Source of the DNA: Anaerosacchariphilus polymeriproducens
GTDB lineage: Bacteria; Bacillota; Clostridia; Lachnospirales; Lachnospiraceae
Reading direction: 5' to 3'
Assembly: GCF_003363435.1 (NCBI RefSeq)
Contig: NZ_QRCT01000048.1
Location: 1 to 64,000 of the forward strand
Length of the DNA: 64,000 nucleotides
Shown here: positions 5,125 through 45,195 of the stretch, one piece after another
Numbering within the stretch: the first letter of the stretch is position 1
Layout of the letters: every line of letters starts with the position of its first letter
Position numbers and translations under genes: made by a program
Notes under the pieces: model-generated
The model's database searches: none
The model's input: only the letters and a program-made list of their open reading frames with translations
What the model was told of the DNA's origin: nothing

Positions 5125-6213
5125 CTAAAAGTCTTGTGATTCCATGTATTTCATGTACTTAACTACCATTAGAGCTATCTTAAATGTAATCGCATCTTCA
5201 AAAACACGTAAATCCAAACCTGTACTTTTTTGCAGTTTATCTAAACGATAAACCAATGTATTTCTATGGATATATAACTGCCTTGATGTTTCAGAAACAT
5301 TTAAGCTATTTTCAAAAAATTTATTTATTGTTGTTAATGTCTCTTCATCAAAATCGTCCGGAGATTTACCGTCAAATATCTCTTTTATAAACATTCTGCA
5401 TAAAGGTATAGGTAATTGATAAATTAGCCTGCCAATTCCCAATGTACTATAAGCTATAATATCTCTTTCTTCAAAGAATATTTTACCTACATCTAAAGCC
5501 ATTCTTGCTTCTTTATATGACCTTGAGACCTCTTTAATTTCATTCACAATGGTACCATAAGCTATATGAACATCACCTTTCTTCTCATTAACCAATGCAC
5601 CTAAAATCATTTCAGCTATTTTATTCATTTCATCATAGCCATCATCATGATTTAATTCCTTAACAACAATAATATTCTTTTCATCTACTGCTGTTATAAA
5701 ATCTTTTGTTTTTCCACCAAAGAGACTTCTTACTTTTTCTAAAGTATTCCCATCTTTCTCCCTATGGGTTTCTAAAATAAAAACCACTCTTCTTACTTCT
5801 GTATCAATGTGTAATTTCTTTGCGCGATTATAAATATCAACCAATAAAAGATTATCTAATAATAGATTTTTCACAAAATTGTCTTTATCAAAACGTTCCT
5901 TATACGCAACAATCAAATTCTGAATCTGGAATGTTGCAATTTTACCAACCATATAAACATCATCACTGCCGCCACTTGCAACTAAAACATACTCTAACTG
6001 CTGTTCTTCAAATACTTTAAAAAATTGATATCCCTGAACTACCTGGGAATCAGCTGGCGAATCTATAAATGTTATAGCCGGTTCAGTAAAATTATCAGCC
6101 TCTGAAAATGTAGTCGCTAACACTTTTCCTTCTACATCAATAATACATAAGTCAATTCTAGTTATTCCTTTTAATCCATCAATGGTATTTTGAAGTATCT
6201 GATTTGAAATCAT
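5125..6213 (-). CDS. PucR/CdaR-type transcriptional regulator
   Basis: About 362 residues. The C-terminal 60 residues (FFENSLNVSETSRQLYIHRNTLVYRLDKL) form the HTH_30 motif of PucR and CdaR regulators. The N-terminal region (ITRIDLCIIDVEGKVLATTF) resembles the diacid-recognition sensor domain, and a GGDEF-like or linker region sits between. The start at 6213 is chosen because GAAGGAGTG precedes it; an upstream extension would encode an unusual basic N-terminus and lacks a ribosome site. The effector is unknown and no catabolic operon is adjacent. It is transcribed alone, about 140 bases downstream of ftsE on the same strand. Confidence 0.8.
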   Translation of the reverse strand: MISNQILQNTIDGLKGITRIDLCIIDVEGKVLATTFSEADNFTEPAITFIDSPADSQVVQGYQFFKVFEEQQLEYVLVASGGSDDVYMVGKIATFQIQNLIVAYKERFDKDNFVKNLLLDNLLLVDIYNRAKKLHIDTEVRRVVFILETHREKDGNTLEKVRSLFGGKTKDFITAVDEKNIIVVKELNHDDGYDEMNKIAEMILGALVNEKKGDVHIAYGTIVNEIKEVSRSYKEARMALDVGKIFFEERDIIAYSTLGIGRLIYQLPIPLCRMFIKEIFDGKSPDDFDEETLTTINKFFENSLNVSETSRQLYIHRNTLVYRLDKLQKSTGLDLRVFEDAITFKIALMVVKYMKYMESQDF

Positions 6214-6437
6214 TACCCACACTCCTTCTATTGTGTTTTCTGCTATACAACTTTCACAAAATAAAGTAACCTTTTTTTTTGCTAAAAAAACCACCCTAAC
6301 TTGTATTTTAATGCAAAACTACAAAAAAGGAAAGAGGAAATGTTATTTTTTTATGCATTTTCTCATTTTTTAGTATTTTTTAATATTTCATGACAAGCAT
6401 TCAGCAGTATACAATATTCACAATATTTTATTTCTAT

Positions 6438-7310
6438 TTACATTTCCAAGAATCCCTCACCCAAAACTTCTCTAACATCACTAACAATTACAAATGCTTT
6501 CCTGTCTGCATTCACAACAATTTCCTTCAATTCAACAATCTCTTTTTTCGATACAACACATATTAACAGATTTTTTTCATTTCCAGAATACACACCTGTA
6601 GCATTTAAACTTGTAAGTCCTCTTGCTATTTTATCCCAAATAGCTTTTGATACTTCTTCTTTTTTCTCTGTAATTATAAAAGCTGCTTTTGAAAATTTAA
6701 CACCTTCTATTATGCCATCCGTTACTTTTGAAACTATGAAAATAACAATTAAAGCATAAAGTGCCTTATTAATTCCAAATACAAAGATACCTACAAAAAC
6801 GATTGCGCCATCTATTAACTGTAAAATCTGAGCAATGGAATAATGTTTCTTATAATGTTGTATTAAAGCTGAAACAAAATCGGTACCACCAGTAGTTGAA
6901 CGACTCATTAATACTAATCCTACTCCAATACCGGTCAACACTCCGCCTAAAACTACTGTCAAAAAATTATCACCTTGACATATTGGAAATGCTGGTAAAA
7001 AAAATAGCCATATTGAAAGTGCAATTGTTGCAAAAAATGTTCTTTTAAGATAATGTGCTCCCTTTATCTTATAGCCTATAAAAAAAGCAGGAATATTGAG
7101 TAAAAGGTTGGTAAACCACAAAGGTACCCCTCCTTTCACAATATTCCCAGTAATATTTTTTATAATAATTGCAATTCCGGTAAAGCCTCCCGTAACAAGA
7201 CCCGCCGAATCAAATATTGATTTTATAGCCAGAGCCATTAGACCTGTTCCTAAAATCATATAAATATAATCTTTATATTTGGAATGACTTTTAAATAGAT
7301 GCATAATCAT
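6438..7310 (-). CDS. YitT family membrane protein
   Basis: A 290-residue protein with five or six membrane segments in the first 200 residues (the YitT/DUF161 region, with GLVTGGFTGIAIIIKN and MSRSTTGGTDFVSALI), followed by a cytoplasmic DUF2179 domain (about residues 210-290) ending in FVIVSDVREVLGEGF. The function of the family is unsettled; roles in small-molecule transport have been suggested. It overlaps the end of the upstream glycosyltransferase gene by 4 bases (ATGA), so it is coupled to it. A second ATG two codons in is also possible. Confidence 0.87.
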   Translation of the reverse strand: MIMHLFKSHSKYKDYIYMILGTGLMALAIKSIFDSAGLVTGGFTGIAIIIKNITGNIVKGGVPLWFTNLLLNIPAFFIGYKIKGAHYLKRTFFATIALSIWLFFLPAFPICQGDNFLTVVLGGVLTGIGVGLVLMSRSTTGGTDFVSALIQHYKKHYSIAQILQLIDGAIVFVGIFVFGINKALYALIVIFIVSKVTDGIIEGVKFSKAAFIITEKKEEVSKAIWDKIARGLTSLNATGVYSGNEKNLLICVVSKKEIVELKEIVVNADRKAFVIVSDVREVLGEGFLEM

Positions 7311-7984
7311 TTTTCCTCATTCTTATATTTTGATACTACTCTATGGAAAATACCTCGATTAATAAAGTCTTTAAACCAAACACTCACTTTCTTAGTCGTT
7401 AGAATTGTCCTTATATTTCTTCCTAATTCAAACCAAAGCCGAGCATTAATTTTACTCTTTTGCTCCAAAATAAACGATTCTCTTGCAGGAGAATCTAATG
7501 CTGCAAAAACAACATCCGGTTCTATGATATTTATTTCATTAACAACCACATCATAATCATTCTTACATTTTTCAATATCATAACTTGCAGCTACAATACA
7601 AGACGGAAACTTCTGTACTAGATATTTTTCAAACAATTGACATTCTTCCTCTGTATTGCACAATATAAATATTGTACATTTTTTATGAGATAACTTTTCC
7701 AAGAAGCGTATAACAAATTCATTTTCAACAGTTTCTCTTACTCTAAATCCCCTTGTGATACCTGCTACAGCTAAAATCTCTTTATCCCCGATTATTTTCA
7801 TATCCAGGTTTTCTATCGATTCTTTCACTTTAACATCCTCACCTGCAAGGATTAACAAGTCCATAAAAACAATTCCTACAACATGCATAATTTTATCATT
7901 CAAATATGCATCGATCATTGATATAGACTCTCTAACTGAATAATTATCTAAATCTAATCCAAGTACATTAATCTTTTTTTTCAT
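7307..7984 (-). CDS. WecG/TagA/CpsF family glycosyltransferase
   Basis: About 225 residues. The order of motifs fits the WecG/TagA fold: INVLGLDLDNYS at the N-terminus, the substrate loop near residues 60-80 (LDMKIIGDKEILAV), and the later segment PDVVFAALDSPARESFI that corresponds to the family's nucleotide-sugar region. TagA members add N-acetylmannosamine to a lipid-linked sugar in wall polymer synthesis. Some usual residues of that last motif differ here, so the substrate could be different. The start is set at the ATG at 7984 after GGTGGGG. It is coupled to yitT by a 4-base overlap. Confidence 0.72.
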   Translation of the reverse strand: MKKKINVLGLDLDNYSVRESISMIDAYLNDKIMHVVGIVFMDLLILAGEDVKVKESIENLDMKIIGDKEILAVAGITRGFRVRETVENEFVIRFLEKLSHKKCTIFILCNTEEECQLFEKYLVQKFPSCIVAASYDIEKCKNDYDVVVNEINIIEPDVVFAALDSPARESFILEQKSKINARLWFELGRNIRTILTTKKVSVWFKDFINRGIFHRVVSKYKNEEK

Positions 7985-8017
7985 TACCCCACCTATGGTC
8001 ATTATGCCCATTAACAC

Positions 8018-8603
8018 TCCATTTATGAGTATTCCCTTTCATATATTCAGATAGTATAACAAATGTATTTTGCTTTTTCAACTACTACTTTCATAAGTGA
8101 GGTATTGATAGTTTCTATAAAAATCTGTCTTTTTTTTACAATTTCTTCATTTTTTTTAATATTTAAATGTCAATAGTATTCCACATTATTTTTGTGGAAA
8201 TGTGGATTTTATTATATCTTCACAAAACATAAGTTCCCATTTTTCTCTATGTAAACCACTATTTTTTGCATTTTTTTTGTGGACAATGTGTATAAGTCGG
8301 TGTATAACTCCATTTTTTCGCAAATTACGCTTTTTTTATTGTGGATAACTTTTTCCTTTATCTAACAAATTTTGTTAAGTTTTTTCTTCATTTTTTTCCA
8401 TTTTGTGCAAAGTGCTATTTTTACAAATTTCAAAAAAACATAAACAAAATTTTTCATGAAAATACAACATAATTCACCTAACATCTCTATAGTATATGTT
8501 CCATTTCTTTTAACATACCATATAGATGATGCATTTTTTCTATTAGGATACATTGTGTATACTCACTTTATTTTCTATTATTTCATTTTGCCTTTAATGA
8601 AAA
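8018..8603. other. Gene-free AT-rich region with DnaA-box-like cluster
   Basis: No convincing gene lies here. Between 8193 and 8348 there are several DnaA-box-like 9-mers, all reading on the minus strand: TTATCCACA (8340-8348, perfect), TTATACACA (8287-8295, matches TTATNCACA), TTGTCCACA (8278-8286), TTATACACC (8299-8307), and weaker AAATCCACA (8201-8209) and ATTTCCACA (8193-8201). Long T-runs separate them. No dnaA, dnaN or divergent gene pair is present, so I do not call this oriC. It may titrate or bind DnaA, or regulate the flanking genes. Confidence 0.5.
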
Positions 8604-8649
8604 AGAGTGTTGCGCCATAGATGAATAATCATCTATGGCGCAACACTCT
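8604..8649 (-). terminator. Long perfect hairpin terminator
   Basis: A 21-bp perfect stem (AGAGTGTTGCGCCATAGATGA and its complement) with a 4-base loop, followed on the minus strand by five Ts. It lies 6 bases past the NlpC/P60 gene. Confidence 0.9.
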
Positions 8650-8655
8650 CTATAT

Positions 8656-9822
8656 TTAAAAAATTCTTCTTACTGCAACAATTTCTCTATATGTAGCACT
8701 TTGAATTCGTATTCCGGTTTCAGAACTGCTTGCATTAACGATTTGTCCTCCACCTATATAAATTCCAACATGTCCGCTATAACAAATGATATCTCCCGGT
8801 TGTGCCTGGTCATAACTAACTCCATAGCCAACTCCAGCCTGAGCACTTGAGGAGTGAGGTAAACCAACACCAAAATTTGCATATACACTCATTACGAATC
8901 CAGAACAATCTGCTCCATTCGTTAGGCTTGTCCCACCGTAAACATAAGGATTCCCAACAAACTGACAAGCAAAATCTGCGACTGCTTGTCCAGATCCACT
9001 TCCAGAACTTTTAGATGTAGAACTTGAACTTTCTTGTGATGAATTCTTTGAAGATGATTTAGAAGTTGATGCTTTCTGTGCTGCTTTCTCAGCTTCTTCT
9101 CTCTCTTTCTTTTCTTTAGCAAGTCTAGCTTCTTCCTCTTCTTTTGATTCTGCTGTTACATAAAAGGTTTTACATTTTACAAATTCTTGAGAGACATAAC
9201 CCTCTCCTTCCTCTATAGAAACTTTGACCCATCCATCTTTCTCTTCCGTAACAGTAAGCTCTTCCTCTTGTGGTACTAATCCTATGATATCAGATGTAGC
9301 ATTCGAATCTTTTCTAACTCTGAGCGTCTCTGTATCAACAACAGCAATTCTGTGACCAACTGACTTTGCTAATTCTTCATTATTACGAACAACAAACTCT
9401 GATTTTACATATCCGGTTACAGAACCAGATTTAATTTTGTACCAATCACCTTTTGTTTCCAATATAGTAGCAGCAGAGTTATTATAAAGTTTTCCAACAA
9501 CTTCTCCTTCCTCGTTTGCCTCAACCCTTACATTGACATAATTATCAACCTGTGCAATTGCTATATCTGCATATTCAGATTTGACTTTTTTGGTTTTTTT
9601 CTTCTCTTCTTTTTTTGTATTTTTAGGTTCTTCTTTTTTTGTTGAATTTTTAATTTCTTTCGTTTTCTGTGGTGCCGTATAGCATTCCGAAAATGCTAAA
9701 GATACACCAGCACTTGGAAGCATTTCTTTTTCACTGGCAGCTTTCGTACTTATCATTGATCCTGTGAATACTACGCCCCCAACCAGGCAACACGCTGCTA
9801 CTTTAACTATATGTTTCTTCAT
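8656..9822 (-). CDS. SH3b-NlpC/P60 cell wall hydrolase
   Basis: About 388 residues, secreted. A Sec signal (MKKHIVKVAACCLVGGVVFTG) is followed by a Lys/Glu-rich linker, two bacterial SH3 domains (about residues 90-160 and 165-220), an acidic/basic coiled region (KEEEEARLAKEKKEREEAE), a Ser-rich linker and a C-terminal NlpC/P60 domain. The catalytic Cys is in DCSGF, the His in GHVGIY, and the third polar residue is in IVNASS. Such enzymes cut the D-Glu to diamino acid bond in peptidoglycan stems. The ATG at 9822 follows TTGGAGG. A strong hairpin ends the transcript. Confidence 0.92.
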   Translation of the reverse strand: MKKHIVKVAACCLVGGVVFTGSMISTKAASEKEMLPSAGVSLAFSECYTAPQKTKEIKNSTKKEEPKNTKKEEKKKTKKVKSEYADIAIAQVDNYVNVRVEANEEGEVVGKLYNNSAATILETKGDWYKIKSGSVTGYVKSEFVVRNNEELAKSVGHRIAVVDTETLRVRKDSNATSDIIGLVPQEEELTVTEEKDGWVKVSIEEGEGYVSQEFVKCKTFYVTAESKEEEEARLAKEKKEREEAEKAAQKASTSKSSSKNSSQESSSSTSKSSGSGSGQAVADFACQFVGNPYVYGGTSLTNGADCSGFVMSVYANFGVGLPHSSSAQAGVGYGVSYDQAQPGDIICYSGHVGIYIGGGQIVNASSSETGIRIQSATYREIVAVRRIF

Positions 9823-10065
9823 TCTTACCTCCAATTAATATTTATATATTTATTGTTTTTTATTTATTACGAATTTATTAATTATATTACAAACTCATTA
9901 TAACAAAGTACTCTATCTATGTCAATTAAAATTCTTTAAAAGTCTTTTACAACGAATTTTGTCTTTTTTCTTTTTTATTTACTGAATTATCTGCATTTTT
10001 ATTTATATTTTTCTTGAAATTTGCAGGAATTTGTTATATATTTTTATTACAAGGAGGAATTGCTT

Positions 10066-10239
10066 ATGGATATTTCATTATTATCATCTTTGGGGCAAAT
10101 CAATGTTCAAAATGATGTAGGAGTTGCTATGCTAAGTAAATCTCTCGATTTAATTGAAACTATGGGAGACGGAATGCAAAAAATTATGGAGCAATCAGTA
10201 ACTCCTCATATCGGTTCAAATATTGATATATCAATATAA
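10066..10239 (+). CDS. YjfB family putative motility protein
   Basis: A 57-residue protein with the YjfB pattern: short N-terminal MDISLLSSL, a central amphipathic helix (GVAMLSKSLDLIETMGDGMQKIMEQS) and a polar end HIGSNIDISI. In Bacillus and Clostridia such genes are usually expressed with flagellar genes, but the molecular role is unknown. The start is set by ACAAGGAGG 8 bases upstream; earlier in-frame codons have no ribosome site. It stands alone, with a terminator just after it. The flagellar genes of this window are far away (52-54 kb). Confidence 0.82.
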   Translation: MDISLLSSLGQINVQNDVGVAMLSKSLDLIETMGDGMQKIMEQSVTPHIGSNIDISI

Positions 10240-10269
10240 ATTTTGAATACGATTTCCAAACAGAATGCA

Positions 10270-10305
10270 AAAAAAGAGCGGCGGCTATTGCCATCGCTCT
10301 TTTTT
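10270..10305. terminator. Bidirectional terminator
   Basis: AAAAAAGAGCG pairs with CGCTCTTTTTT around a 14-base loop, between the convergent YjfB and CPBP protease genes; it touches the stop codon of the latter. Confidence 0.87.
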
Positions 10306-11260
10306 ATATTATAAACTCTCTAAAAAACATAAACAGAATACAAATACAAACTCCAAAAATTAATGGAAATGTTACTATCTTTTCCTTTTTTTCTTCTTTC
10401 CAAATACTTTTAACGTGTTCCCATCTATTACATCGTTTGCATAAAACGATGAACACCACGCCCGCAAGAACGGCTGTCCCTATAGAAATTAAAATCCAAA
10501 CACCAACACTGATCAATATTTGAATCGTTGAAAGTCCATCATGAAATTGTAAGGATTGACCCGATTGTTTTGAAAAAAGATCTGTCGAAAGCCCCAACTC
10601 ATTTGCTTTTTTTATGATTAGATTTATAACAGTCAACAATATGACTGAATTACCGTTTATAATCAAATGTGCTGTCATTGAGCTATAAATACTACCTGTC
10701 GCTTCAATTAATAAAGCAAAGAAAACTCCCATGAACACAGTATAACAGAATTGATTAAAATTTAAATGAACTAATCCAAACATAATAGATGATATTAAAG
10801 CTGCATATTTTATACTAGCTTTTCTCATTGTATGAAACATAATCCCTCTAAATATAAATTCTTCAAATATTGCTGGAGATACAGCAATAAATAAAAAATT
10901 TAATAAAAATGGTCCATCCATTAGACTTCCAATAGCTTTAGAAGCAACATCCTTAACAAAAAATTGAGAGATCATACTAATCGTTGACATAAGCGGAATC
11001 ATCAAATAAGTGATCAGAACCACTAATAATAAATTAGATATCTTTATTTTTCTGTACGGTATCAATCGTATAGGATTACTCTTTGTAACCAGAAGAAAAA
11101 TTAATCCAGGTATCACAATAAATCCTTGCGATACTAATAACAATAGATACGTTGAAAGTTGTATTCCATTCATATTTAATTTAAATATTGTGAAAATTCC
11201 TAATATATAAACAATTGTAATAATTAAAAATAAAATACCGGCATTTTTTGTTGTTCTCAT
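10304..11260 (-). CDS. CPBP family intramembrane metalloprotease
   Basis: A membrane protein of about 318 residues with seven or eight hydrophobic segments. It carries the CPBP (Abi/CAAX) motifs EEFIFRGIMF (metal-binding Glu pair and Arg) and FGLVHLNFNQF (His). Bacterial members include immunity and anti-stress proteases; no bacteriocin gene is adjacent here, so the target is unknown. The ATG at 11260 follows GGGGGTAAG. A hairpin between this gene and the upstream one suggests separate transcripts. Confidence 0.85.
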   Translation of the reverse strand: MRTTKNAGILFLIITIVYILGIFTIFKLNMNGIQLSTYLLLLVSQGFIVIPGLIFLLVTKSNPIRLIPYRKIKISNLLLVVLITYLMIPLMSTISMISQFFVKDVASKAIGSLMDGPFLLNFLFIAVSPAIFEEFIFRGIMFHTMRKASIKYAALISSIMFGLVHLNFNQFCYTVFMGVFFALLIEATGSIYSSMTAHLIINGNSVILLTVINLIIKKANELGLSTDLFSKQSGQSLQFHDGLSTIQILISVGVWILISIGTAVLAGVVFIVLCKRCNRWEHVKSIWKEEKKEKIVTFPLIFGVCICILFMFFREFII

Positions 11261-38158: not shown

Positions 38159-38485
38159 GTGGACTATGGCGAAGCTAAACCAAAAAAATGTAATCCAAAC
38201 ACTGTTATTAAATACATTGGACGTTATCTTGGGAGACCGGTAATTGCCACCTCTCGTATTGACAGTTATGATGGTGAAAATGTTACTTTTCATTACAACC
38301 GTCATGAAGATGAAAAATTTGTTACCGAAACTGTTTCCTCTCTTGATTTCATCGAACAGCTTATCCGTCACATCCCTGAAAAACATTATAAAACGATTCG
38401 ATACTATGGTCTCTATGATGGTAATATAGAATTAAAAACAGAGGACAGTATCTTGAACAAAAACAATCATACAGAGGAACTCTGA
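38159..38485 (+). pseudogene. IS91-family (Y2) transposase fragment
   Basis: The 108 codons contain VIKYIGRYLGRPVIATSRID, YNRHEDEKFVTETV and EKHYKTIRYYGLYDG, which match the C-terminal part of IS91-like transposases common in Lachnospiraceae. The N-terminal half with the catalytic tyrosines is missing, an in-frame stop lies just upstream, and the usual Cys-rich zinc region after YYGLY is absent. This is a remnant. GTG at 38159 is not meant as a true start. Confidence 0.75.
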
Positions 38486-38751: not shown

Positions 38752-38885
38752 CATATTTCTATCCTCAGCATTAATTAACACTTGCATATGACAGATGTGA
38801 TGTCAAAAGAAAAACGAAGCAAGACGATGAGCCTAATACACAAGATAGGTACAAATATATAGATTTTTTAAATAGCATAGTGATT

Positions 38886-39110
38886 TTAATTGCTAATATC
38901 ATATAATCTCATCTCTGGGGCCTCTTCAATAGTTTCGCTGCTTTTATGTACTATCCCTGAATAATTTCCCATCTTTTCCTATTCACTAACATCATCCATC
39001 CCCTGTTCCTCCAAAATATACCTACACTACTTTCAAATTTATTACGAAATCCCTTAATATATATCCCATCATTTTATTAATTTCTTCAGAATTACCACCA
39101 CCAAATCTAT
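38886..39110 (-). pseudogene. Decayed small gene downstream of the MFS gene
   Basis: The 38752-39201 stretch has no intact gene. On the minus strand an open segment with NRFGGGNSEEINKMMGYILRDF stops, then a second frame reads ILEEQGMDDVSE, a stop, and MGNYSGIVHKSSETIEEAP to MRLYDISN (ATG at 38972, stop at 38886). Together they look like one gene of roughly 75 codons broken by a frameshift and a stop. No family is recognised. Confidence 0.35.
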
Positions 39111-39201
39111 TCCTATTTTTATATCAATCATCACCAATGCTTATTTTTATTCCAAATTTCGTCTAACAAGTGGATTCTATCCTACACTGTGGAATCTAGA
39201 A

Positions 39202-40419
39202 TTATGAGCTCATTATAGTGTTACAAAAACGCTTGACTAGGACAGATAAAAGTCCTAAGCAAATTAACAAAATACCTGTAACTATCATAACATTTTTAAG
39301 CACTATACTATTAAGAAGTATACCATAAATGAAAATAAGCCCTGAAGAAAATACATTTCCTATAGCATTTGCTACAGAAAGAATTGTTGATCTAACAGAA
39401 GATTGTTTTATCATTTTATTTATTTCGTTGTTTGAAATTACAGCAAATGCTCCCCATATTAGACGAACAAACATTATTAACCCAATAAAAATTAGTGCAT
39501 TCGTATTAAAACCAATAACAACATACAACACACCTGTAAATAATGAAACATATATAACAATAAAACGTGAAATATTACGTATATTAACTGATAATTTTGA
39601 GCCAAACCCGTAAATGAGTACTGCTGCGGAATATACTATTCCAAAATATGGTTTAGGAATAGTATTTGATATTAATAGCAATGGATAAATAAACAAATAC
39701 ACGGAATAAAAAAATGACCGAATTACACTAGTATATATTATATAAAACCAAAGCTTTTTCGACTGAGTTTTAATTCGATAAAATGCTTTCATTTTCTTAA
39801 GTCGATTTCCACTTGAATCAACTTCATCATAATTTTCTTCATGAATAGTCAATCCAACGATAAAAGAAACTATAAATAGTATTATACTAAGAACAAACGG
39901 ACTCATTTCCCAATAGTTATAAAGTATACCACCAGTAATAAATGATAAAGACAAAATTAAAGATGAGTTGAAATGCATATTACAATTTACTTTATCATAC
40001 ATTATTTGTTTATTGTAATACTTTAAATTATCAAATAAAAAAGCCTTATCAGCACCGCTACTTAAAGTTTCCGAGAGAGCAAAAAGAAATTGAGCAACAC
40101 ATAGCCACCAAAAGTTTTGAAACAGTACTATTATTCCTAAGCTAATAATACTGATGAATACACCTAACAATACCGAAACTTTTCTACTAATATGATCTGC
40201 TACAAACCCGGTGGGAATTTCAAGCAAATTCACTGAGAATGTCTTTATTGAAAGCAATATCGCTACTTGTATTTCTCTGTCCATGATTCCTTGATAATAA
40301 ATCACTAAAATAGGTATATAGAAAAAAGCTTGTTTCAATCCATCAAGTATATAGAATTTAAGAAGCATCCTATTGAAATTTTTCTCACTAATTAATGCAG
40401 TTTGAGTTTCGTTTTCCAT
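39202..40419 (-). CDS. MFS transporter (probable peptide-product exporter)
   Basis: About 405 residues with twelve hydrophobic segments. The MFS motif A between TM2 and TM3 is GFVADHISRKVSVLLG. It resembles the 12-TM drug and metabolite exporters of Firmicutes. It starts right at the end of the second radical SAM gene (ATG at 40419, GGAG 10 bases upstream; an ATG three codons earlier is an alternative), so it belongs to the same operon. Export of the modified peptide or self-protection is the likely job, by context. Confidence 0.83.
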   Translation of the reverse strand: MENETQTALISEKNFNRMLLKFYILDGLKQAFFYIPILVIYYQGIMDREIQVAILLSIKTFSVNLLEIPTGFVADHISRKVSVLLGVFISIISLGIIVLFQNFWWLCVAQFLFALSETLSSGADKAFLFDNLKYYNKQIMYDKVNCNMHFNSSLILSLSFITGGILYNYWEMSPFVLSIILFIVSFIVGLTIHEENYDEVDSSGNRLKKMKAFYRIKTQSKKLWFYIIYTSVIRSFFYSVYLFIYPLLLISNTIPKPYFGIVYSAAVLIYGFGSKLSVNIRNISRFIVIYVSLFTGVLYVVIGFNTNALIFIGLIMFVRLIWGAFAVISNNEINKMIKQSSVRSTILSVANAIGNVFSSGLIFIYGILLNSIVLKNVMIVTGILLICLGLLSVLVKRFCNTIMSS

Positions 40420-40420
40420 T

Positions 40421-42544
40421 TTATACATTCTCCCATAATTCAGTATTCTCATTCAAAAACACTATAACTTCTGAGCAGTTTTCAAATATTAATTCATCAT
40501 CTATATTTTCATAAACACCATTAACAACTTCACGAATAGATTTAATACCGTCGAATACTTTAAATATCTTATATAAATCTTCGTTTATAGTTAAAATATC
40601 TATACTAGCAAAGTGCAGATAATCTCCCTCAGCTTCTCTAAAAGCTAAATATATTGGTGCTTTGTCAGTATCATAGATTTCATTTTTTTCGTCAATCTTA
40701 AAAAAGTTATCCTTAAGCATTTTAATAATGCTAAGAACGTCATAGTTATATGCTTTTACCTTAATTTTTGATTTAATAACACTATGTTCTGATAATTCTT
40801 TCGATTTTAAGGTGTCATTATTAAAATTATTTTCTATATTTATGGAAAAATCAGCAAAATCACATTCGTATTGATGTAGCTCATTCACTATTGAAGACGA
40901 TTCAACTCTATCTCCAAAAAAATTACAGAATAAATCAAAAAGCCTTTGCTCTGCTGGCGAACAAGCGCTTCCTATTTCCACAACAGTCTCTCTCCTAAAT
41001 TTGAACAATTCTGTCTTGCTCCAACCTTTTATATTTGCATAACTTAAGAATTCTTCTATGAAGTCTTTTTTTTGATTACTCAGTATATCAACCACAAAAA
41101 ATAAAGTAATAGGATAGAAAGCCATAATAACACTAAAAAAGGTTGTTACAGCAGTAATTTTTTCAGGATCTAACATTTCATTTTTTATATATCCGTATTG
41201 TGGAAAAAGCGTTGGGTAATTGTCTATTAATTCTTGATCCTCTTGTAATCTCAACGAATAATGATCATTTTCATTTGAGTTTTCTTTTCGCCAATTAATA
41301 TATTGAGCAAAATCTGACGAAATATTTGAATCTAAAGAAAACATTAACAAATCATTTACAATTGCATTTAGAGTTTCCGGAGTTCCTGGTAGAGGCGTAT
41401 GAAAATGGATTTCTTGATCCACCCACTTACCATATGTTTGAAGTAATGATGCCATCTTAACTGTTGACTCTATGTGGCTCATATCTTCAAACGGAAGTCC
41501 AATTACGTAACTCCCCCTCACTACAATACCATTATCAATAAGTATCGCAATCGTTTCTTTGGCACTCGAAAAATCTAAGTTTTTACCAATCTTATTTATT
41601 GCATCCTGAGATGCTGACTCTAATCCTACCAAAACATCAATGCATCCCGACCTTTTTAATAAATGAATAATTTCTAGATCTAAATAATCTAACCTACAAC
41701 GTATCGAGTATTTTATATTAATATCATTATTAATTAATTCATTACAAAAAGTAATTATTTCATTTCGATTAGTTCCAAAATTATCATACGTAAATTCGAT
41801 AAAATCAAATCCGTTATTTATTAAAAATTGAATATCATTAATGGTTCTCTCAACAGAATACGTTCTTACATTTCTTTTCCAGAAATATGTGGAAGAACAA
41901 AAGCTACACCCATATGGGCATCCACGTCCAAATTCTAAATACCCATAATGACCTCCATAAGGAGAAGGTGTAAATTGATCTATTTTGGGATACATACACT
42001 TTAAATCGAGAATCGGTAAATCATCCAAATTCTCAATTAATTGCCGCTCCTCTGTTCGTTGTGCTTGTTCTTTATACCTAAATGTTATTCCATTTACCAT
42101 TTCAACGTTACTGTTAGTATCAATTTTATTTAAAAGGTCAGCCAAAGTCAATTCACCTTCACCACGAATAACATAATCAATAAAATTAAATGAATTAATT
42201 ATTTCAATATCGTTATTAAGTACCCACTGGTTCCCAAAGATTATAGTAATGTCTGGTCTTTCCTGCTTAATATACCGAGCAATTTGGATTGAAGGTATTT
42301 CTCCTGATACTATTGCACTAAAGCAATATACTTTTGAATTGAATTTCTGTAACAAAAATTGTGCACATTTCTCATAAATCTTTTCGTCTATTGTAATTTC
42401 TTCTTCCTTAATATAAGAATTCAAATTTATTACTTTTGCTACATGTTCTGTTCTTGAATTGATATAACTAGCAAGCGTTAAAGGCCCCAATGGAATTCTA
42501 TTAATCAAACTTGCATTTGGCGGATATATTATTGATACCTTCAT
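40421..42544 (-). CDS. B12-binding-type radical SAM enzyme with PqqD-like C-terminus
   Basis: A 707-residue enzyme. Residues 1-145 read as a cobalamin-binding Rossmann domain (MKVSIIYPPNASLINRIPLG, FIDYVIRGEGELTLADLL) without the DxHxxG motif. The radical SAM core has GRGCPYGCSFCSSTYFW (Cys209, 213, 216), followed by GLESASQDAINKIGKN and VIGLPFEDM. A long helical middle region follows. The last 75 residues (INEDLYKIFKVFDGIKSIREVV) look like a PqqD-type peptide-binding (RRE) domain. It overlaps the first radical SAM gene by 4 bases and has AGGAGGAATTT upstream. Methylation or another C-H reaction on a peptide is plausible. Confidence 0.85.
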   Translation of the reverse strand: MKVSIIYPPNASLINRIPLGPLTLASYINSRTEHVAKVINLNSYIKEEEITIDEKIYEKCAQFLLQKFNSKVYCFSAIVSGEIPSIQIARYIKQERPDITIIFGNQWVLNNDIEIINSFNFIDYVIRGEGELTLADLLNKIDTNSNVEMVNGITFRYKEQAQRTEERQLIENLDDLPILDLKCMYPKIDQFTPSPYGGHYGYLEFGRGCPYGCSFCSSTYFWKRNVRTYSVERTINDIQFLINNGFDFIEFTYDNFGTNRNEIITFCNELINNDINIKYSIRCRLDYLDLEIIHLLKRSGCIDVLVGLESASQDAINKIGKNLDFSSAKETIAILIDNGIVVRGSYVIGLPFEDMSHIESTVKMASLLQTYGKWVDQEIHFHTPLPGTPETLNAIVNDLLMFSLDSNISSDFAQYINWRKENSNENDHYSLRLQEDQELIDNYPTLFPQYGYIKNEMLDPEKITAVTTFFSVIMAFYPITLFFVVDILSNQKKDFIEEFLSYANIKGWSKTELFKFRRETVVEIGSACSPAEQRLFDLFCNFFGDRVESSSIVNELHQYECDFADFSINIENNFNNDTLKSKELSEHSVIKSKIKVKAYNYDVLSIIKMLKDNFFKIDEKNEIYDTDKAPIYLAFREAEGDYLHFASIDILTINEDLYKIFKVFDGIKSIREVVNGVYENIDDELIFENCSEVIVFLNENTELWENV

Positions 42545-44982
42545 AAATTCCTCCTGTATTGATCTAAGTATAATATTGCGTTAAGTAGTTCTTCTACATC
42601 TTCATTCTTTAAGTAATTGTCCATATTTATGAATGCAGTTAAAAGACTTTTATTTTCGTGTATCCAATAATGTTTAATTAGTTTTTCCAAAACACTTGGA
42701 ATCTCAAACATCTTAAGTTCACCATTTTTTTCAAATACACAATAGTATTGACAGCTTAATTTTAAAATAAATGCAAAGTTAGCATCATTCTTTTCTGGTG
42801 GCAAATAGATATAATTGTTATCACTCATATATTCATCAAGATTTAATGGATCCATTACTTGTTTATAGGCATCTATGATCATTTCAATTAATTTTTGAGG
42901 TTTATGTTTTGACTTTTGAATCTCGCAGTATTCTCCTACAAATTCATCTGGTATAGATATACATTTAGAACAAGAACCGTTAGCTTCACAATGTTTACAG
43001 CCTCGTTCGTTTTCCATCATAACATATCTTTCATCATATCTATGAGTTATAATATTTACAGGTTCCTCTAAACTACCTAAAATTGTACCTGCGCTACATG
43101 TTTTGATATTATATTCCGAATCAATTACCATCCTACCATTTTTCCTAAAGGGACAATCTGCAGTCCATTTACAAGAATCTTTAATAAAAACATTCATATA
43201 TTGTACTCCTAATATGTTTCTAGGTAGTTTAATTTCTCCTCCATGTTTTATCCGTTCTAAAATTTTAGTATAAAAAGAATAATCATCCCTTGTTTCAGTT
43301 TTCAATATCAGCATCGAATCTGCTAGTTCCGCATACCTTGTATATTCATACGACATATAATTATGAATTAATTCATTGAATAGTTTATAAACATATCTTA
43401 GTTCTATTTCCTTTATATTAGATTTTTCTATTCTTGACTTTGAACATGTAAAATCATTTACAGTTCTAATAATATAATCCGATGACAATATATGATGTTG
43501 ATTTTCTGAATTCTCATGATAAAATAATACATACTTTCCTTTAAAATGTTTATTTTGAACATTCAAATTCTCACTACTTTTTCCTTCAAAAATAATCACC
43601 GAATCATTTCTCTCATTCAATCCCTTAAGCGAAGTTTCCATAAAATTTAAGTACATACGATTAGGAAGCGGTGGTATCCCCTTAACATTATATGGATATT
43701 CTTTAACCTTTGCATTAACCGGATATGCAGAATTTTCATTGTGATTTATATTTGGTGCTTCAATTTTATAACCATAACTCATGTAATCACGTGTTAAAGG
43801 AACTCCTGTATACAGTCGAATAATATTATGAAAATAATACTTTGGCCTTAATTCTCTTACCAACTCCATAGTTTTTATTCCATCTTCAAACGTCTCACCT
43901 GGTAGCCCAAGAATTATATTTATTGTATACTCTAAACCATAAGCCTGTGCACATTCAGCAAACCATCTAAATTTCTCAATATAATCCATTTCAACCTTTA
44001 ATGATTCTTCATCAAAATTATCTAAACGTATTTTTCTTATTTTTTTAAGAATTTTAGGAGATGCTGATTCTAAACCTATGCCCACATGATCTATACCTGC
44101 CTGTTTCATAAGCCTAATTAATTCGGAATCTAATTTATCAATACGAGTCTGAATCCAAAATTTTACACCTAGTTTCATAGAAATTATCTTCTTTAGTATT
44201 CTTTTAGCTCTTTCTTGGTTTAAAGTAAATGCATCATCCCAAATAGGTATCGGTTCTAGACTACCGTATTTTTTTGCAACTCTTGCAACTTTAGTTAGTT
44301 CAGCCAGAAATCTCTCTTCTGAATAAAATCGTACTCTCCACTCTGATGTAGTACTAAAACTGCAATAAATACATTTATGATAGCATCCACGTGATGAAAA
44401 TACCCCTATTTTAGTCATCATTCTTTCAGGCACAACACCCGTTAGAATTGGTGAAGGATACGAATTAATGTCCAATACTTCATTGTTTGGTTCGAAAACT
44501 ATATTATTTTTCTCTTTATCAAATGAAGCAATACCGGGAATTTTCTCATTTAATCGAAATTTATTGTTGCATTTCAAGAAGATCAATAATTTTTTAAGTG
44601 GTTCCTCACCTTCTCCAATTACAACAAAATCACAAATGTCATTTTTCAACAAATAATCTGCTGATTCTTCTTTAGCAATAGCGCCACCTATAATTATGGT
44701 ACATTCAGGCTTATTATTTCGAATCTCATGTATAATAGATATAGTTACTTCTAAGGTATCGTCTGTAACACTAAAAGCGTAATTATTAGTGTTGTATGTT
44801 AAAAGTAGGTCGAAGTATTCATATAATGCCAATGGTTCTTCATGCAGTAAATGTTCTGTATTAAATCCATTGAAGCGCAAATAGCTCTGTAAATATGCAA
44901 TACCCGGATGTGGGCGAGATACGATTTTTGAAAAGCTTACTTCTGGGCTTAAAAATATAATGTCTATATTACATATGTTCAC
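42541..44982 (-). CDS. B12-binding-type radical SAM enzyme with SPASM-like C-terminus
   Basis: An 813-residue enzyme starting at GTG (44982) with AGGAG 8 bases upstream. Residues 1-170 form a B12-binding-type domain (VSRPHPGIAYLQSYLRFNGF, FVVIGEGEEPLKKLL). The radical SAM core has SSRGCYHKCIYCSF (Cys200, 204, 207), GLESASPKILKKIRKI and NIILGLPGETFEDG. A region of about 190 residues follows, then eight Cys at about 604, 610, 629, 662, 665, 671, 674 and 686 (CKWTADC, CSAG, CKHCEANGSCSKC, EYC), enough for two auxiliary iron-sulfur clusters as in SPASM enzymes that modify peptides. The combination of B12 and SPASM-like parts is unusual. Confidence 0.85.
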   Translation of the reverse strand: MNICNIDIIFLSPEVSFSKIVSRPHPGIAYLQSYLRFNGFNTEHLLHEEPLALYEYFDLLLTYNTNNYAFSVTDDTLEVTISIIHEIRNNKPECTIIIGGAIAKEESADYLLKNDICDFVVIGEGEEPLKKLLIFLKCNNKFRLNEKIPGIASFDKEKNNIVFEPNNEVLDINSYPSPILTGVVPERMMTKIGVFSSRGCYHKCIYCSFSTTSEWRVRFYSEERFLAELTKVARVAKKYGSLEPIPIWDDAFTLNQERAKRILKKIISMKLGVKFWIQTRIDKLDSELIRLMKQAGIDHVGIGLESASPKILKKIRKIRLDNFDEESLKVEMDYIEKFRWFAECAQAYGLEYTINIILGLPGETFEDGIKTMELVRELRPKYYFHNIIRLYTGVPLTRDYMSYGYKIEAPNINHNENSAYPVNAKVKEYPYNVKGIPPLPNRMYLNFMETSLKGLNERNDSVIIFEGKSSENLNVQNKHFKGKYVLFYHENSENQHHILSSDYIIRTVNDFTCSKSRIEKSNIKEIELRYVYKLFNELIHNYMSYEYTRYAELADSMLILKTETRDDYSFYTKILERIKHGGEIKLPRNILGVQYMNVFIKDSCKWTADCPFRKNGRMVIDSEYNIKTCSAGTILGSLEEPVNIITHRYDERYVMMENERGCKHCEANGSCSKCISIPDEFVGEYCEIQKSKHKPQKLIEMIIDAYKQVMDPLNLDEYMSDNNYIYLPPEKNDANFAFILKLSCQYYCVFEKNGELKMFEIPSVLEKLIKHYWIHENKSLLTAFINMDNYLKNEDVEELLNAILYLDQYRRNL

Positions 44983-45008
44983 TTATACATCTCCTATCTT
45001 ATTATATT

Positions 45009-45046
45009 AAAAAAACGACAGTACAAATCAAGTAAATAAACTGTCG
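45009..45046 (-). terminator. Terminator-like hairpin between precursor and enzymes
   Basis: CGACAGT pairs with ACTGTCG (with GU/AU extension) around a 17-base loop, and seven Ts follow on the minus strand. It lies 25 bases after the small peptide stop and 26 bases before the first enzyme. Partial read-through would give far more peptide than enzyme mRNA, as in many RiPP loci. Confidence 0.65.
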
Positions 45047-45071
45047 CTTTTCTAATTTAATTGATTACATC

Positions 45072-45143
45072 TTAACAGTCGTTGCTTTTTTTCTTTGACT
45101 GATTCGCAGATGTTGTTTTAACTTCTTTAATAACTAATTTCAT
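45072..45143 (-). CDS. Candidate RiPP precursor peptide, 23 residues
   Basis: A short gene read directly from the sequence. It starts with MKLVIKEVKTT, continues with a polar, Lys-rich stretch (SANQSKKK) and ends with SNDC, so the only Cys is the last residue. TAAGGAGGTGA lies 7 bases before the ATG, a near-perfect complement of the 16S rRNA tail, much better than that of its neighbours. It is 89 bases upstream of two radical SAM genes on the same strand, with a terminator-like stem between. I infer a leader of about 11 residues and a C-terminal core. The size is like PqqA. It could still be a regulatory leader peptide. Confidence 0.6.
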   Translation of the reverse strand: MKLVIKEVKTTSANQSKKKSNDC

Positions 45144-45195
45144 TCTTTCACCTCCTTACTAATATCTATTTTTCAACACTAACACACGCGAATGT

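Follow-up and report, generated by a model that had tools for sequence, protein, structure and literature searches.

Our analysis indicates that a compact operon in the window, the 64,000-nucleotide stretch of Anaerosacchariphilus polymeriproducens DNA considered here, is probably a small RiPP operon whose product is a small modified peptide of a kind not yet characterised. The operon runs along the minus strand in the order peptide gene, 813-aa enzyme, 707-aa enzyme and MFS exporter. We take the RiPP reading to be the best one because the ribosome site of the peptide gene exceeds chance expectation, the 707-aa enzyme has its nearest likenesses in ApyD and in enzymes from RiPP-like loci, and one of several tests likens its C-terminus to an RRE. 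An earlier sequence-only reading had proposed a RiPP locus at this position, and this evidence supports the proposal as the best interpretation while falling short of proof.

The layout given in that reading, with a 23-codon gene, two B12-type radical SAM genes and an MFS exporter gene on one strand, is real, and its description of genes that overlap by 4 bases or touch agrees with our coordinates. As judged from the ORF coordinates, the two enzyme genes share 4 bases. The exporter gene (39202..40419, minus strand) has its first ATG at 40452 and a second at 40419, one base past the stop of the 707-aa gene; the start at 40419 appears to fit better and suits touching genes. A Pfam MFS_1 match (1.9e-11) sustains the description of this protein as an exporter, and the 12 transmembrane segments once ascribed to it are plausible, with hydropathy giving 13 partly overlapping peaks. 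The start formerly proposed for the locus, 38775, lies 427 bases beyond the end of the exporter gene; the list of open reading frames holds none of at least 60 aa between 38486 and 39201. Close to 38775 is the one shorter ORF considered, of 43 aa (38902-38771, minus strand), which includes a hydrophobic segment and lacks a good ribosome site.

On one side the operon is flanked by sugar transport genes that are Mgl-like, with scores under the curated Mgl cut-offs, and on the other by a lipid kinase/HPr/WhiA/RapZ/MurB block. On its downstream side, on the opposite strand, is a fragment of a Y2 (IS91-type) transposase (38159-38482, plus strand; PF04986, 6.6e-21), and upstream of the peptide gene, at about 45709-45521 on the minus strand, lies a DUF6462-like remnant (E 0.0016, under the cut-off) that is possibly left over from a mobile element. 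The presence of these remnants, one on either side, tentatively suggests an insertion. The operon itself contains no synthase or other substrate-making gene, and neither a protease gene nor a separate RRE gene.

The putative precursor is a peptide of 23 aa, MKLVIKEVKTTSANQSKKKSNDC, encoded at 45072..45143 on the minus strand and recognised by its open reading frame and its ribosome site; no second copy was found in its own genome. Its only cysteine is the C-terminal residue, it has no aromatic residues, and among its six lysine codons is a run of three. The ribosome-binding site, AGGAGG (45151..45156, minus strand), is placed 7 bases before the ATG. When the 898 bases that separate the flanking genes were shuffled with their dinucleotides preserved, an ORF of 15-60 codons preceded by AGGAGG at 5 to 9 bases from its ATG arose in 7 of 5000 shuffles. 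The ribosome site is thus above chance expectation, and the short gene with a near-perfect ribosome site that had been reported there stands.

Between the peptide gene and the enzyme genes, beginning 15 bases past the peptide stop codon, is a terminator-like hairpin with a T-run (45006..45056, minus strand). RNA folding of 45071-44983 gave -21 kcal/mol with a z-score of -4.04, and none of 200 shuffles was equally stable; the hairpin does not figure in the pattern-based terminator list, in which the loop limit is 8 bases. The sequence-only reading was silent on this hairpin, as it was on the SPASM-like region described below. Control of the leader by a riboswitch or T-box was considered and rejected, all Rfam matches being sub-threshold. 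Promoter-like sites numbered 47 in the region compared with a shuffle mean of 49.4; since they are not commoner than in shuffled sequence, no promoter is claimed.

Both enzymes are radical SAM proteins with CxxxCxxC motifs and Pfam Radical_SAM matches above cut-off, as had been read from the sequence. In the 707-aa protein (40421..42544, minus strand), which is assigned from its ORF and from Pfam, NCBIfam and hhalign comparisons, the motif is CPYGCSFC at residue 209. Its Pfam B12-binding match (2.7e-4, 21.2 bits) is below cut-off, and we count the domain as present because the best whole-protein models belong to B12 radical SAM families; with the 813-aa protein, whose match is above cut-off, this bears out the B12-type N-termini claimed for the pair. 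The best NCBIfam model for the 707-aa protein is ApyD (3.7e-47, 161 bits), followed by BchE with 133 bits. The 161 bits lie far under the curated cut-off of 750 for ApyD equivalogs (NF050148).

Searching 397 genomes of the family with the 707-aa protein recovered relatives at E 1e-30 in four genomes besides its own, all of them 22-28% identical to it and none orthologous. Three of the four sit in RiPP-like loci. One locus (L010; genome G126, 5956-10899) contains a YydG-like epimerase, an 82-aa peptide that looks nif11-like by eye and gave no nif11 match in model searches, a SpoIIE-type gene and the B12 enzyme, which scores 284 bits to ApyD; after it comes what appears by eye to be an ABC-type exporter. 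Another (L011) has an ABC-type exporter, again by eye, a 36-aa peptide gene whose start was assigned by inspection, and the B12 enzyme (252 bits to ApyD), with no further maturase. The third (L012; genome G301, 7676-11087) encodes a 41-aa peptide with two cysteines, WgkB-like and WgkC-like proteins and the B12 enzyme (196 bits to ApyD), and is in its own right a separate RiPP-like locus in which SPASM and B12 radical SAM enzymes are combined. Around the weakest of the four relatives (L013), the stretch read holds no peptide-maturation gene, which speaks against the RiPP reading; by eye, its neighbours resemble the two halves of a transketolase, radical SAM proteins of the plain type, a methyltransferase and sugar-type genes. 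A scan of genome contigs with the 707-aa protein added one Bacteroidales match of 19% identity.

The 707-aa enzyme carries a C-terminal extension that is missing from all four relatives. Aligned by hhalign with nine PqqD/RRE-like proteins, its last 112 residues scored 24.1 (probability 26%, 48 columns), compared with at most 17.9 for 100 shuffles and at most 14.4 for 28 other fragments. A genome-wide search with the Pfam PqqD model, allowing E values up to 1, returned a single weak match, located on a different contig, and nothing in the 707-aa protein; Pfam and NCBIfam RRE models matched the C-terminus of neither enzyme; and a single-sequence structure model of the extension had no usable fold (pLDDT 42). 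Because the PqqD, Pfam/NCBIfam and fold tests gave no support, we regard this C-terminus as RRE-like in a suggestive sense, on a likeness seen in one of several tests.

The 813-aa protein (42541..44982, minus strand; GTG start) is placed among B12-binding radical SAM proteins by Pfam and NCBIfam. It has a CYHKCIYC motif at residue 200 and a B12-binding match of 1e-9 (38.7 bits against a cut-off of 32.1). Past the core comes a SPASM-like region with eight cysteines (residues 604, 610, 629, 662, 665, 671, 674 and 686) and then an additional tail roughly 120 residues long. All eight are shared with a 702-aa protein from genome G165 that is 27% identical to the 813-aa enzyme. Residues 662-686 read Cx2Cx5Cx2Cx11C, and the published five-cysteine SPASM motif, as given in the part of PMC5682303 consulted, is Cx2-4Cx5Cx2-3C with a last spacing of 14-18; the spacings therefore agree except for the last, which is 11 here. 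Pfam SPASM had no match on the protein. There was a weak match (0.0028) to the C-terminal part of TIGR04148, a radical SAM peptide maturase model, and one to a KamA-type model (0.012). From SPASM radical SAM peptide maturases the enzyme differs by its N-terminal B12 domain, and, seen from the other direction, the SPASM-like C-terminal region is, as far as sequence can tell, an unusual addition to a B12 enzyme. No SPASM-like motif was present in any of the 72 distinct B12-type ORFs in 80 viral loci, a measure of rarity that is limited because this viral set was found by pattern and chosen by likeness to the 707-aa protein. A radical SAM enzyme uniting SPASM and cobalamin-binding domains is not described in the part consulted of the review PMC5682303.

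Relatives of the 813-aa protein at E 1e-20 were present in five other genomes of the family (G165, G174, G363, G024 and G277), and their surroundings were read in the first three. The best full-length relative, that of G165, lies directly downstream of a 1716-aa gene that is PKS/NRPS-type by eye, so the 813-aa branch would not be tied to peptides; this relative's own best model is ApyD (136 bits). The locus (L021, 8584-15884) is of note in itself for pairing an eight-cysteine B12 radical SAM enzyme with a PKS/NRPS-type gene. In G174, weaker relatives share a locus with genes for a radical SAM protein and for a PqqD-like protein, the latter above its cut-off. Among NCBIfam models, the one scoring highest on the 813-aa protein itself is that of the PhpK P-methyltransferase family (94.9 bits against a cut-off of 600), with ApyD at 67.1. 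For a possible RRE in the tail, the hhalign score of 12.2 was below the best of 100 shuffles (19.0). A single-sequence model of the tail (pLDDT 58) has strands followed by helices, the order expected of an RRE, and Foldseek returned nothing for it at E 0.001. A recent duplication giving rise to the two enzymes has no support, their cores being 28-29% identical.

Orthologues of the enzyme pair were not found in overlapping draws of genomes from the family, phylum, order and class, which yielded distant relatives only. Searches with the 813-aa protein covered 397 genomes of the family, 398 of the phylum and 378 of the order; those with a two-row alignment (A1) covered 391 genomes of the class and 21 around G165. 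One further relative emerged from the class (G895, 7e-49), which covers the core only and lies on a 4.4 kb contig, and the search around G165 returned G165 itself only. Viral contigs had no matches to the 813-aa protein, the 707-aa protein or alignment A1, and 80 generic loci with a second alignment (A2); plasmids held distant enzymes only, and the peptide was not found on them. The lack of an orthologous pair and of a second peptide copy counts against the RiPP reading. In the genome itself, which is 96% complete, no MNIO (PF05114) was found at E 0.001, with the control positive in 2 of 14 genomes, and there were no Lant_dehydr_N (PEARL-type) matches, a result made uninformative by a control of 0 of 14.

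If the operon works as we propose, the 23-residue peptide would be the precursor, its N-terminus, KLVIKEVK, which is strand-prone by eye, would dock on the RRE-like tail of the 707-aa enzyme, and its polar C-terminal part, about SANQSKKKSNDC, would be the portion modified. The 707-aa enzyme, like ApyD, most likely methylates an unactivated carbon. The 813-aa enzyme could then carry out another step that depends on B12 and a radical, plausibly at or next to the C-terminal cysteine, and its SPASM-like iron-sulphur region may take part by binding or oxidising the substrate. A protease encoded elsewhere in the genome would trim the product, and the MFS protein would export the short peptide that results. 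The hairpin that follows the peptide gene may allow the precursor to be made in excess over the enzymes.

It is also conceivable, and in our judgement unlikely, that the enzymes act on a small molecule, a polyketide or a lipid and that the short ORF is unrelated or accidental. The PhpK model as best match for the 813-aa protein and the PKS/NRPS-type context in G165 count against the RiPP reading as far as such comparisons go; the G165 context and the locus of the weakest 707-aa relative, with its lack of peptide-maturation genes, would suit a small-molecule substrate, and MFS exporters typically carry small molecules. Against this reading, the operon has no gene to make such a substrate and its neighbours are a sugar transporter and the lipid kinase/HPr/WhiA/RapZ/MurB block; the RRE-like C-terminus, the RiPP-like loci of three of the four 707-aa relatives and the strong ribosome site also tell against it. 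The 23-codon ORF could instead be a regulatory leader, in which ribosome movement governs the downstream hairpin and hence the enzyme genes. Attenuation of this kind, for which the strong hairpin 15 bases past the stop and the cluster of lysine codons could be cited, seems to us distinctly improbable: a Lys/Cys leader has no obvious link to two B12 radical SAM enzymes, the single cysteine codon is the last of the ORF, and neither a T-box nor another Rfam leader is present. Terminators after precursor genes are, moreover, common in RiPP operons.

A further alternative, to which we also give little credence, is that the peptide is a pearlin-like scaffold, a carrier whose encoded C-terminal cysteine is elaborated by the two B12 enzymes and released as a single modified amino acid or tiny peptide. 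The position of the sole cysteine and the MFS exporter agree with it, and there is precedent in TmoD, a B12 radical SAM enzyme that makes three successive methyl transfers to a methylthioether derived from the C-terminal cysteine of a carrier peptide, in a cluster that includes a transporter (PMC9303977, in the part consulted). That cluster has a protease as well (PMC9303977), which the present operon lacks, and the absence of MNIO matches from the genome argues in the same direction. A more speculative form of the idea, improbable in our estimation, is a pearlin-like assembly that dispenses with PEARL and MNIO, in which two B12 enzymes would work on an encoded C-terminal cysteine borne by a disposable 23-residue carrier. 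At similarly long odds, one enzyme of such an assembly would be a B12 and SPASM-type hybrid, and a tiny thiol or thioether product would be exported by the MFS protein.

If the peptide is the substrate, the operon would amount to a very small RiPP system of the B12 radical SAM kind, with two enzymes only, and would for that reason be easy to reconstitute. The 813-aa enzyme would also offer an opening to ask what role an auxiliary iron-sulphur region plays in enzymes of this class.

B12 radical SAM methyltransferases occur in the RiPP clusters for thiostrepton, polytheonamide and bottromycin, where the precursors are larger and the enzymes more numerous. The likeness to aminopyruvatide (apy) lies in ApyD, the RRE-containing B12 radical SAM enzyme whose family provides the best NCBIfam model for the 707-aa protein and which forms beta-methyltyrosine in a RiPP (PMC10635010, in the part consulted); apy differs in having an MNIO, an RRE protein, a P450 and a methyltransferase, none of them in the present operon, and its modified stretch, Gly-Tyr-Leu-Tyr-Asp, is absent here. 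Pearlins, as represented by 3-thiahomoleucine (tmo), share the C-terminal cysteine on a carrier, the B12 radical SAM enzyme and the transporter. In tmo, according to the sections of PMC9303977 consulted, a PEARL adds the cysteine, an MNIO/RRE pair excises its beta-carbon and a protease is present, whereas the cysteine of the present peptide is genetically encoded. In the biphenomycin-like pbs clusters a short precursor goes together with a B12 radical SAM enzyme and with an MFS transporter, and some biphenomycin-type clusters whose precursors bear another motif encode a second B12 radical SAM enzyme (PMC12257519, in part). An MNIO, a partner protein presumed to contain an RRE, and aromatic motifs are further features of these clusters (PMC12257519), while here the genome gives no MNIO match and the peptide is without aromatic residues.

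RiPP clusters with two B12 radical SAM enzymes, and one with an MFS exporter, are already in the literature (PMC12257519, in the part consulted), and the earlier statement that no described family has this pairing holds in part, those clusters having an MNIO, for which this genome gave no match. The combination seen here is not described in the portions consulted of PMC10635010, PMC9303977, PMC5682303, PMC12257519, PMC8326336 and PMC13331322, which represent mainly open-access literature. What is distinct here is a minimal operon in which a very small, single-cysteine peptide of 23 residues is accompanied by a B12 enzyme with a SPASM-like region, and by neither an MNIO nor a local protease.
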